A DNA stretch of 64,000 nt, taken from assembly GCF_013401515.1 (NCBI RefSeq), contig NZ_CP058529.1, positions 372,001-436,000 of the forward strand. The letters run 5' to 3'. The DNA comes from Halorarum halophilum (GTDB lineage Archaea > Halobacteriota > Halobacteria > Halobacteriales > Haloferacaceae). A program made the position numbers and the translations under genes. Shown here in pieces: positions 34,731 to 37,500 of this stretch (the stretch's first letter is position 1; each line of letters opens with the position of its first letter). The notes under the pieces are model-generated. The model had not been told where the DNA came from. It saw nothing but the letters and a program-made list of their open reading frames with translations, and searched no databases.

Positions 34731-35432
34731 GTGAACCCGTTCGTCTCCGCGGACGCGCGACGGCGGTTCCTGCGGTCGGCCGCGCTGGTCGCGGTGTGCC
34801 TGCTCGGCGGCGCGTTCACCCTCCGGACGTTCACGCCCTCCCTCTCGGACCCGGACGCGCTCCGTTCGGCGTTCCTCGGACTCGGCCCGTACGCGGGTGC
34901 CGGATTCGTCCTCTTCGCGGCGCTCGCGGTCGTCCTCGCGCCCGTGCCGGGACAGGTGGTCGCGTTCCTCGGCGGCTACCTGTTCGGGCCGGTCGCCGGG
35001 ACCGCCTACTCCCTGGTCGGCTTCACGCTCGGGAGCGGCGCGGCGTTCCTGCTCTCGCGGACGTACGGGCGTCCGTTCCTGGAACGGACGATCGCCGGCG
35101 ACCTGCTCGCGCGCTTCGACGGGTTCGTCGGCGAGACGGGGATCCTCGGGGTGTTCGTCGTCTTCCTGGTTCCCGGACTGCCGGACGACGTGGTGTGTTT
35201 CGCGGCCGGGTTGACGCGAATCAGGCTCTCACGGCTCCTCGCAGCGGCGTTCCTCGGACGAGCGCCGGGGATCACGCTCGTCGCGCTGGCCGGCGCGAGC
35301 GTCGAGACCGGTTCGTTCAACGCGGCGCTCGCGATACTGGCCGCTGTCGCCGTGGTGACACTGCTCGGGTGGTACTCCCGGAGGAGGATCGAGCGTCTGG
35401 TCCGCGACTACTCGGCGTCTACGAGACGGTAG
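34731..35432 (+). CDS. TVP38/TMEM64-family membrane protein
   Basis: A 233-residue protein with about six hydrophobic segments and the VTT/SNARE-associated core: APVPGQVVAFLGGYLFGPVAGTAYSLVGFTLGSGAAFLLSRTYGRPF, then FLVPGLPDDVVCFAAGLTRI. Members probably act on membrane lipids. GTG at 34731 is preferred because a TTTATG box lies 27 nt upstream; an in-frame ATG at 34704 overlaps that box. Its 3' end overlaps the convergent phosphoribosyltransferase gene by 25 nt. Confidence 0.86.
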   Translation: MNPFVSADARRRFLRSAALVAVCLLGGAFTLRTFTPSLSDPDALRSAFLGLGPYAGAGFVLFAALAVVLAPVPGQVVAFLGGYLFGPVAGTAYSLVGFTLGSGAAFLLSRTYGRPFLERTIAGDLLARFDGFVGETGILGVFVVFLVPGLPDDVVCFAAGLTRIRLSRLLAAAFLGRAPGITLVALAGASVETGSFNAALAILAAVAVVTLLGWYSRRRIERLVRDYSASTRR

Positions 35433-36106
35433 CCGCCGTCCGTCTCGCGAACGACGCCCCGCCGGACCATCTCGGACATGACCTCGTCGAGGCGACCGGG
35501 CTGGGCGATCTCCATGCCGATGCGGTCGACGTCGTGGTACTCCGAGAGGAAGTGCCGCACGTCCTCCTTCGAGAACCGGTCCCGGTCGGCCCGCTCCATC
35601 ACGCCGGAGATGAGGTCGACCATGTCCTCGATGAAGTTCCAGGGGTACACCACCCACGTCCACTCCTCGAGCCGCTCGCCGATGAAGTCGGGCTCGAACG
35701 TCGAACTCTGGAGGAGCTGGAGCGTCGCCGTCCGGATCTCGCCGCCGTCGCGTTCGTCCACGTACTCGTGGGCGCGCTTGATGGAGCCGCCGGTGTCGGC
35801 GATGTCGTCGATGATGAGCACGTCCTTCCCCTGGACGCTGCCCTCCGGCATCGGGTAGCGCACGGTCGGTTCGCCGGACTTCTCGGCGGTGCCCACGTAG
35901 TGTTCCATCTTCAGGCTCGTGAGGTCGTCCATCCCGAGGAAGTCGCAGATGCACCGCCCCGCGAACCAGCCGCCCCGGGCGAGCGCGACCACCACGTCCG
36001 GCTCGAAGTCGGCCGCCTTCACCTCGTCGGAGACCTGGCGGCAGAGGTCGTAGATGTACTCCCAGTTGGTGATAGTGCAGTTGAAGTCGTCCGGGAGATC
36101 GCTCAT
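35408..36106 (-). CDS. Phosphoribosyltransferase with C-terminal winged-helix-like domain
   Basis: A 232-residue protein. Residues about 1-150 form a type I PRTase fold: ALARGGWFAGR, the PRPP loop VLIIDDIADTGGS near 96-108, and WNFIEDMVDLISG at the end. The remaining 70 or so residues (FSKEDVRHFLSEYHDVDRIGMEIAQPGRLDEVMSEMVRRGVVRE) form a small helical, wHTH-like domain. Haloarchaeal proteins of this type are annotated as purine (xanthine/guanine) phosphoribosyltransferases; a regulatory role as in GfcR is also possible. The ATG (complement of 36104-36106) is typical. Confidence 0.82.
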   Translation of the reverse strand: MSDLPDDFNCTITNWEYIYDLCRQVSDEVKAADFEPDVVVALARGGWFAGRCICDFLGMDDLTSLKMEHYVGTAEKSGEPTVRYPMPEGSVQGKDVLIIDDIADTGGSIKRAHEYVDERDGGEIRTATLQLLQSSTFEPDFIGERLEEWTWVVYPWNFIEDMVDLISGVMERADRDRFSKEDVRHFLSEYHDVDRIGMEIAQPGRLDEVMSEMVRRGVVRETDGGYRLVDAE

Positions 36107-36380
36107 GACACTGGGAGTGACGCGTGCCCCGGTAAAAGGATTTATAGGTGCGTTTCGGGGGTAGACGCGAGAGGGAGATCCCAGAGCGTCGCCACTCCCT
36201 GTTGGGCGTCGGTCGTCCAGGAAATCTGCCGGTGGCGCGCGGCGGCAGCCCTTCCGCTCACGCGCGCTTCGCCCGCGTGATGGTTCGAGACGGTTTCGCC
36301 GTCTCGAAGTTCATCGGACGTTTCCAGCAGCGATACGCCAGCCGAAACCGACGAGCAACATCGGCCCCTGGCGCAACGCA
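36107..36380. other. Intergenic region with two palindromes, upstream of the lysine leader
   Basis: This 274-nt stretch holds no convincing gene. Two perfect inverted repeats lie 3 nt apart: TCACGCG/CGCGTGA at 36258-36280 (7-bp stem, 9-nt loop) and TTCGAGACGG/CCGTCTCGAA at 36284-36308 (10-bp stem, 5-nt loop). Each loop region includes TTCG(CC), as in the metG hairpins. An open frame at 36148-36384 is Arg-rich and cut through by the palindromes, so it is not called. Confidence 0.6.
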
Positions 36381-36387
36381 TTAGTAG
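36380..36387 (+). promoter_or_regulatory. TATA-like element of the lysine operon leader
   Basis: ATTAGTAG, centred about 26 nt upstream of the ATG at 36409. The spacing fits a transcript that begins exactly at the leader mini-ORF. Confidence 0.5.
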
Positions 36388-36408
36388 CCGCCACACTCCG
36401 TACCACGT

Positions 36409-36498
36409 ATGCGAGACACGTCGCGCCGCGCTGGGGCCGCCCCCCACGAGCGCGGCGTGTCGGCCGCCTTCTCGGGTCGGAAACCGAAACGCGCGTAG
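36409..36498 (+). CDS. Candidate leader peptide of the lysine (dap) operon
   Basis: A 29-codon frame, ATG to TAG, beginning MRDTSRRAGAA and ending SGRKPKRA. It starts at the expected first base of a leaderless mRNA, contains a long hairpin (36415-36461) and ends 96 nt before the dapA ATG. Near its end are two AAA lysine codons (KPK), while dapA itself uses only AAG. It is also Arg-rich (6 of 29). A regulatory leader sensing lysine or arginine supply is an inference; no such archaeal attenuator is known to me. It could instead be a chance frame. Confidence 0.35.
   Translation: MRDTSRRAGAAPHERGVSAAFSGRKPKRA
36415..36461 (+). promoter_or_regulatory. Long GC-rich hairpin in the dap leader
   Basis: GACACG (36415-36420) pairs with CGTGTC (36456-36461). 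After a 5-nt bulge, CCGCGCT (36426-36432) pairs with AGCGCGG (36449-36455). GGGG (36433-36436) can pair with CCCC (36442-36445) around a 5-nt loop. Seventeen GC-rich pairs make this a very stable RNA element between the promoter and dapA. Confidence 0.65.
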
Positions 36499-36594
36499 TC
36501 CGCTCGCGGCGGGAGTGGCACCCCCGTCCCGGGCGACCCCGGACGACCGCACCGCGTGACGACCGAACCCATCGACACCACCGACCCACACAGC

Positions 36595-37500
36595 ATGACG
36601 ATCCACCACGACACGTTCGCCGGCGTCTACCCGGCGATGACGACACCGTTCACGGACAGCGACGACGTCGACCACGAGCAACTCGCCGCCGACGCCCGAC
36701 GGCTCGAAGCCGCCGGCGTCGACGGACTCGTTCCGGTCGGCTCCACCGGGGAGTCGGCGACCCTGACCCACGCCGAACACGGCGAGGTCGTCGAGACCGT
36801 CGTCGATGCCGTCGAGATTCCGGTCATCGCGGGCACCGGCTCGAACTCGACCCACGAGGCGGTCGACCTCTCCGAGCGCGCGGCCGAGGCGGGCGCGGAC
36901 GCCCTGTTGCTCATCTCGCCGTACTACAACAAGCCGGAGCCGCGGGGCCAGTACGAACACTTCGCGGCGGTCGCGGAGGCGGTCGACCTGCCGCAGATAG
37001 TCTACAACGTCCCCTCGCGCACCGGGCAGAGCCTCGACCTCGACACGGTCGTCGAGCTCGCGGCGCTCCCGAACGTCCAGGGGTACAAGGCGGCATCCGG
37101 CGACATCGGACGCATCTCCGAGATCATCGAGCGGACGCGCGGGGAGACGTTCGACGTGCTCTCGGGCGACGACGCGCTGACGGTGCCGACGATGTCCGTC
37201 GGCGCGACGGGCACCATCAGCGTCGGGGGGAACGTCGTCCCGGAGCGGACGACCGAGATGGTCCACGCCGCGCTCGAGGACGACTTCGAGCGCGCGCGGG
37301 AGCTCCACCACGAACTCGCGCCGCTGTTCCGAGAACTGTTCCGCGAGACGAACCCCATCCCGGTGAAGGAGGCGATGGAGATCCGAGGGTACGGCCCGGC
37401 CGACCTCCGCCTCCCGCTCACGCGAGCGACAGACGAGACCCGTGCGGTCCTCGAGGACCTGCTCGCCGACCTCGAGGAGTCGGAGGTGGCCGAGGCGTGA
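36595..37500 (+). CDS. dapA: 4-hydroxy-tetrahydrodipicolinate synthase
   Basis: A 301-residue TIM-barrel enzyme. Motifs are GVYPAMTTPF at the start, GSTGESATL, the catalytic Tyr in YNVPSRTG and the Schiff-base Lys in YKAASGD. It condenses aspartate semialdehyde with pyruvate, the first committed step of lysine synthesis. The ATG at 36595 is chosen by the family N-terminus; GTG at 36556 in the same frame is possible. No Shine-Dalgarno sequence is visible. First structural gene of the six-gene operon. Confidence 0.93.
   Translation: MTIHHDTFAGVYPAMTTPFTDSDDVDHEQLAADARRLEAAGVDGLVPVGSTGESATLTHAEHGEVVETVVDAVEIPVIAGTGSNSTHEAVDLSERAAEAGADALLLISPYYNKPEPRGQYEHFAAVAEAVDLPQIVYNVPSRTGQSLDLDTVVELAALPNVQGYKAASGDIGRISEIIERTRGETFDVLSGDDALTVPTMSVGATGTISVGGNVVPERTTEMVHAALEDDFERARELHHELAPLFRELFRETNPIPVKEAMEIRGYGPADLRLPLTRATDETRAVLEDLLADLEESEVAEA

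Follow-up and report, generated by a model that had tools for sequence, protein, structure and literature searches.

Ribosome-mediated attenuation is a textbook mechanism of gene regulation in bacteria. In the trp, his and thr operons of E. coli and in the pheST leader, a short ORF with clustered cognate codons directly precedes RNA hairpins and the cognate operon, and a ribosome that stalls on these codons would cover one of the two strands of a helix. The leader of the dapA gene described here is organized in the same manner, but it is archaeal, its mini-ORF is probably leaderless and the window, by which we mean the entire 64-kb stretch of DNA analyzed, has no U-tract terminator. It also differs from the bacterial attenuators in having a conserved GTRGC loop and a basal helix that is built from the codons behind the sensing codons. 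Genes for amino acid metabolism in bacteria are likewise controlled at the RNA level by the lysine riboswitch (L box, RF00168) and the T-box (RF00230), but the dapA leader is shaped like a translated ORF and has another structure, and neither family gave a match in the leader region up to an E-value of 5. An Rfam scan of this region yielded chance-level matches only.

The resemblance to the Rho-dependent uORF attenuators of bacteria is that translation of the uORF would decide on the read-through into an unstructured C-rich stretch. However, archaea have, to our knowledge, no Rho factor. The archaeal factor FttA instead prefers U-rich RNA (PMC11616081). Within the archaea, the closest described cases are the short ORFs in mapped, long 5′-UTRs of H. 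volcanii, one of which is located before pheS (PMC4983044, Table 2), but no amino-acid-codon logic was proposed for the uORFs in that list and dapA is not included. A preliminary description of the locus had called this type of control unfamiliar in archaea, which agrees with the literature searched: we found no description of a dapA leader or of archaeal leader-peptide attenuation, a mention in Ribo-seq work on H. volcanii being possible. The archaeal literature searched calls transcription-translation coupling barely known and names no leader-peptide attenuator.

The features of the locus are as follows.

36380..36387, + strand: TATA-like box of the leader promoter, ATTAGTAG (sequence; the box position recurs in most of 77 leaders)
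36409..36498, + strand: leader mini-ORF, probably leaderless, encoding the peptide MRDTSRRAGAAPHERGVSAAFSGRKPKRA followed by a stop (sequence, conservation, motif scan)
36415..36461, + strand: hairpin P0 within the body of the ORF (fold prediction, cross-species stability peak, arm covariation)
36481..36489, + strand: putative regulatory Lys codons AAA CCG AAA, with Lys at 36481-36483 and 36487-36489 (comparison of leaders)
36489..36502, + strand: 5′ strand of helix P3, covering the end of the last Lys codon, Arg-Ala-stop and the next bases (window fold and covariation)
36504..36536, + strand: hairpin P1/P2 with the conserved loop GTGGC at 36515-36519 (covariation; match to model R1 with an E-value of 1.0e-9)
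36540..36557, + strand: 3′ strand of helix P3 (window fold and covariation)
36558..36594, + strand: A/C-rich unstructured spacer before dapA (sequence)
36595..37500, + strand: dapA, the first gene of the operon (PF00701, E-value 3e-87)

The gene order in the operon is dapA-dapB-dapD-lysA-dapF-dapE, and the remaining genes were also matched to their families. All coordinates in the layout first proposed for the mini-ORF were confirmed: the TATA-like box is followed by an ATG at 36409, 29 sense codons and a TAG at 36496-36498, with 96 nt from the stop to the ATG of dapA at 36595. The 3′ end of the mini-ORF reads AAA CCG AAA CGC GCG TAG, and the contrast that had been drawn between its terminal pair of AAA codons and a dapA gene that only uses AAG is correct, as the dapA gene in the window contains three AAG and no AAA codons. 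The spacer at 36558..36594 has no Shine-Dalgarno sequence, U-tract or TATA element. In the window, no sigma-70-type promoter, no terminator of the corresponding type, no hairpin followed by a U-tract as in intrinsic terminators and no tRNA genes were identified.

The leader is divergent from a phosphoribosyltransferase gene (35408-36106, − strand), which also adjoins dapA in a number of Halobaculum-like genomes (L024, L026, L027, L028). The intergenic region between them contains, upstream of the leader promoter, a perfect inverted repeat at 36284-36308, TTCGAGACGG-TTTCG-CCGTCTCGAA, that is present in a single copy in the window.

To place the leader in a comparative context, dapA loci were taken from whole genomes and named genome contigs, and the upstream DNA was inspected. 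A small ORF with terminal Lys codons precedes dapA in essentially all of the approximately 100 distinct loci, with a length of about 24-31 codons and a nearly Lys-free body followed by two, rarely three, Lys codons before the stop. We aligned 94 leaders at the stop codon and compared the last 8 codons with the 16 codons before them. The last 8 codons contain two Lys in 86 leaders, three in 6 and one in 2, and the preceding 16 codons contain 2 Lys among 1,504 residues. The spacing between the final two Lys ranges from 1 to 4 codons (KK, KxK, KxxK). The tail is KKR in many of the leaders, among them those of Halorubrum. The genus of the window and the relatives of Halobaculum have KPKR, many Natrialbaceae KRKR, and Haladaptatus and Halomicrococcus KRTKR. 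The ratio of AAA to AAG codons for Lys is 180:19 in the leaders, as compared to 10:289 in the neighboring dapA genes. Decoding of AAA requires tRNA-Lys(UUU), and genes for both this tRNA and tRNA-Lys(CUU) are present among the chromosomal tRNAs read in the genome of the window.

The frame and, as shown below, the hairpin are kept across relatives; the preliminary description had named a lack of their conservation as grounds for refutation, and its reading withstood this check. The doubt it had raised about the identity of the sensed amino acid, Arg codons being more numerous, is settled in favor of Lys, which is restricted to the final codons in almost every species, whereas Arg is spread through the whole peptide. 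In an extra set of 20 dapA upstream regions, picked to include divergent genomes, a strict scan identified a clear leader in 12; inspection by eye revealed the variant tails KRGKR (L293) and KRKRKR (L284), a single Lys in four others (L286, L287, L289, L298) and one region without a clear leader (L285).

In most of the 77 leaders, 28-30 nt separate the TATA-like box from the start codon selected downstream of it, which was ATG in 44 cases and GTG in 32, and the distance from the start to the last Lys is mostly 21-28 codons. It should be noted that the choice of start rewarded a TATA-like word at −34 to −20, so that the spacing was partly selected for; the informative part of the result is that the peak is tight and that the ORF has a fixed length. 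Some automatic picks are too long (e.g., L051, L052, L056), and a shorter in-frame start is available in these. Because the box is placed 28-30 nt before the start, the transcript is probably leaderless and would begin at the start codon of the mini-ORF. Leaderless transcripts are the most common kind in haloarchaea and account for 72% of the protein-coding transcripts in H. volcanii (PMC4983044).

A mechanical scan that required a TATA element at −31 to −23, an ATG or GTG start, a length of 15-45 codons and two or more AAA among the last 8 codons gave exactly one match on the two strands of the window, at 36409. In 1.68 Mb of other haloarchaeal DNA from named loci, again on both strands, there were 60 matches, all of which are dapA leaders; 55 are located within 500 nt upstream of dapA and 5 at loci with dapA at another coordinate. 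The idea of a chance ORF and hairpin in GC-rich intergenic DNA could draw on the unremarkable z-scores of the single-sequence folds, but it is refuted by the absence of background matches in the 1.68 Mb and by all of the conservation tests.

The hairpin that had been proposed within the ORF, at 36415-36461, is indeed predicted, but taken alone it does not exceed shuffled sequences in stability (z −1.2 for the region, −1.5 for the ORF body). Since the single-sequence fold is unremarkable, the test must be comparative. Across 46 diverse leaders, windows in the ORF body exceed shuffled sequences significantly in structure, with a mean z of −1.36 ± 0.19, as compared to a baseline of −0.29 ± 0.09 in the dapA coding sequence, and the arms of P0 covary (permutation z −4.3; −4.1 in the strict set). 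The hairpin is thereby conserved as a structure, without conservation of its sequence.

The most conserved RNA element is, however, a second hairpin past the stop of the mini-ORF, at approximately 36498-36557, which was absent from the earlier account. Its upper part, P1/P2, is two-part with a near-fixed GTRGC loop 3′ of the stop; in 48 diverse sequences, 90.9% of the cells are paired and 9 of the 13 pairs are altered on both sides, a covariation score that was reached by none of 500 shuffles. Helix P3 pairs the codons right behind the last Lys with a strand located 24-48 nt past the loop. Matched strands outbind mismatched species pairs in this helix (0 of 5,000 permutations; z −6.1, or −4.6 after strict dereplication to 32 sequences), and the signal is limited to the two strand windows. 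A covariance model built on the post-stop hairpin identified one strong copy per genome, with a match at E ≤ 0.01 in 47 of 60 relatives, and in the genomes of the family every top match is, by comparison of coordinates, directly upstream of dapA. Three weak additional matches were found elsewhere (G001, G011, G023), and matches over 148 genomes of the phylum were confined to the order.

The Lys codons occupy the unstructured gap that separates P0 from the second hairpin. An alternative helix, exclusive of the other pairing, would join the start of the ORF to the Lys-Arg-stop segment, but it is only suggested by the data (z −3.6, strict −2.9, from a comparison of about 78 pairs of windows). Relatedness among species inflates the covariation z-values, and our claims are for this reason limited to P1, P3 and P0.

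On the basis of these comparisons, we consider it very probable that the leader is a cis-acting, ribosome-read lysine sensor, in which stalling at the Lys codons governs the folding of the RNA and hence the expression of the dap-lys operon. The dap-lys transcript would begin at the start codon of the mini-ORF, and the ribosome would read about 25 almost Lys-free codons before it meets two Lys codons, mostly AAA, that need tRNA-Lys(UUU). If lysine is ample, the ribosome would pass, terminate and depart, after which the RNA, beginning at the Arg-x-stop codons, would fold into a single long hairpin, P3-P1-P2. If lysine is scarce, the ribosome would stall at the Lys codons with its leading edge over the 5′ strand of P3, thereby preventing P3 and allowing the operon to be expressed. 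In 73 of the 77 leaders, the distance from the beginning of the last Lys codon to the GTRGC loop is 28-32 nt, which, given the general size of a ribosome footprint, should place the 5′ strand of P3 within reach of the stalled ribosome. We infer the translation of the mini-ORF, the stalling, its direction and the output step, and it is the biosynthetic logic that suggests that stalling corresponds to the ON state.

Of the two hairpins, the one past the stop is the likelier to act, and its basal helix uses the codons right behind the last Lys. The locus displays a short ORF with clustered cognate codons upstream of the cognate amino acid operon, and a helix, P3, with a 5′ strand that could be masked by a ribosome sitting on the Lys codons. 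The original suggestion of a translation-dependent leader resembling an attenuator is thereby supported by the conserved frame, the position of the Lys codons, the codon bias, the position of the promoter and helices P0, P1 and P3. The term attenuator holds for the translation-dependent, amino-acid-sensing form, but is unproven in its strict sense, as the window has no classical terminator U-tract.

As the output, premature transcription termination seems to have a slight edge over control at the level of translation, since no part of the leader pairs with the start of dapA. Termination in archaea favors U-rich RNA, both by FttA (PMC11616081) and in the intrinsic mode (PMC8116511), and with no U-tract in the window simple termination is unproven; four to five T residues are found directly past the hairpin in some clades (L288, L290, L291; L125), but most leaders are, like the window, without a U-tract. 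These absences, together with the unstructured A/C-rich spacer that precedes dapA in all clades, could also be explained if the lysine sensor is translated but acts on translation or mRNA stability, with the hairpin keeping ribosomes from passing, from reinitiating or from gaining access to dapA from the 5′ side, or else exposing the RNA to nucleases. We regard such an output as somewhat less likely. Sequestration of the dapA start site by the leader is unlikely, as no pairing signal was found between them. The distance from the stop to dapA is also long and variable, roughly 70-290 nt, which counts against a translational output because translational coupling in H. volcanii has little effect past about 30 nt (PMC12548453).

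Other explanations dispense with the reading of codons for lysine. The well-conserved hairpin with its near-fixed loop could belong to a plain structured RNA, protein-binding or riboswitch-like, in an unread ORF where an A-rich segment only mimics Lys codons. We find this improbable, as the spacing of the Lys codons shifts by whole codons (KK, KPK, KRK, KRTK) while frame, start codon and TATA spacing are fixed, the stop position differs, AAG sometimes replaces AAA, the rest of the ORF has no Lys, and the Rfam searches described above matched no family. Nor do we believe that a basic KKR tail stalls in the exit tunnel, with lysine or another ligand acting through the nascent peptide. Arg is usually found behind the last Lys and hydrophobic residues often before it, but the pairing in P3 partly accounts for the Arg codons, the rest of the peptide is unconserved, the tails vary (KKR, KPKR, KRKR, KRTKR, KAKR, KGKR) and the strong AAA bias indicates that it is the codon or the tRNA that is sensed. 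In many species AAA AAA CG precedes a stem, an arrangement that would suit programmed frameshifting at AAAAAA ahead of a hairpin. Such frameshifting is ruled out by the window (AAACCGAAACG) and the KPKR and KRKR clades, in which there is no slippery run.

A Phe-rich leader was also identified upstream of pheS in about 20 of 30 genomes inspected, typically with GFGFFF before the stop, a TATA-like box ahead of the start codon and conserved GGYGGA and CGAAACC motifs 3′ of the mini-ORF. The fit is poorer in L196, L202 and L221 of the set L196-L222, and the covariation of the outer stem was not significant by permutation (p 0.09, 18 sequences). In the genome of the window the leader encodes the peptide MAPEPAADRIAPETTTGGFGFDFFRA (L220; G000:C1 near 2453300, − strand). 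For pheS in H. volcanii, a uORF of 26 amino acids has been reported with a start site mapped by dRNA-seq (PMC4983044, Table 2), a comparison made from the published listing. The pheS mini-ORF is probably a second amino-acid-sensing leader. No cognate leader was found upstream of hisG (His), trpC (Trp) or the Trp and Tyr tRNA synthetases, and these negatives serve as a control.

It is likely, in our opinion, that archaea use ribosome-mediated leader-peptide control, and that the haloarchaea have at least two such sensors (Lys/dapA and Phe/pheS). These would have leaderless mini-ORFs and would differ from the bacterial systems in their RNA structures, their output would probably involve no U-tract terminator, and they would have evolved separately from those in bacteria. 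A Lys-codon leader across the haloarchaea, where genetics is good, would make it possible to test directly if ribosomes in archaea control expression ahead of them, and the dapA leader could serve as a ready reporter of charged tRNA-Lys(UUU).

Two further observations were made. A conserved segment similar to CGGAACNGCTAACTGACG is located some tens of nucleotides before pheS in L198, L203, L206 and L208 and is possibly a second promoter. A 148.9-kb contig in the assembly of the window (G000:C4:45500-60000, L345) contains 31 tRNA genes in about 13 kb, which span nearly all amino acids and resemble a virus or plasmid tRNA array.
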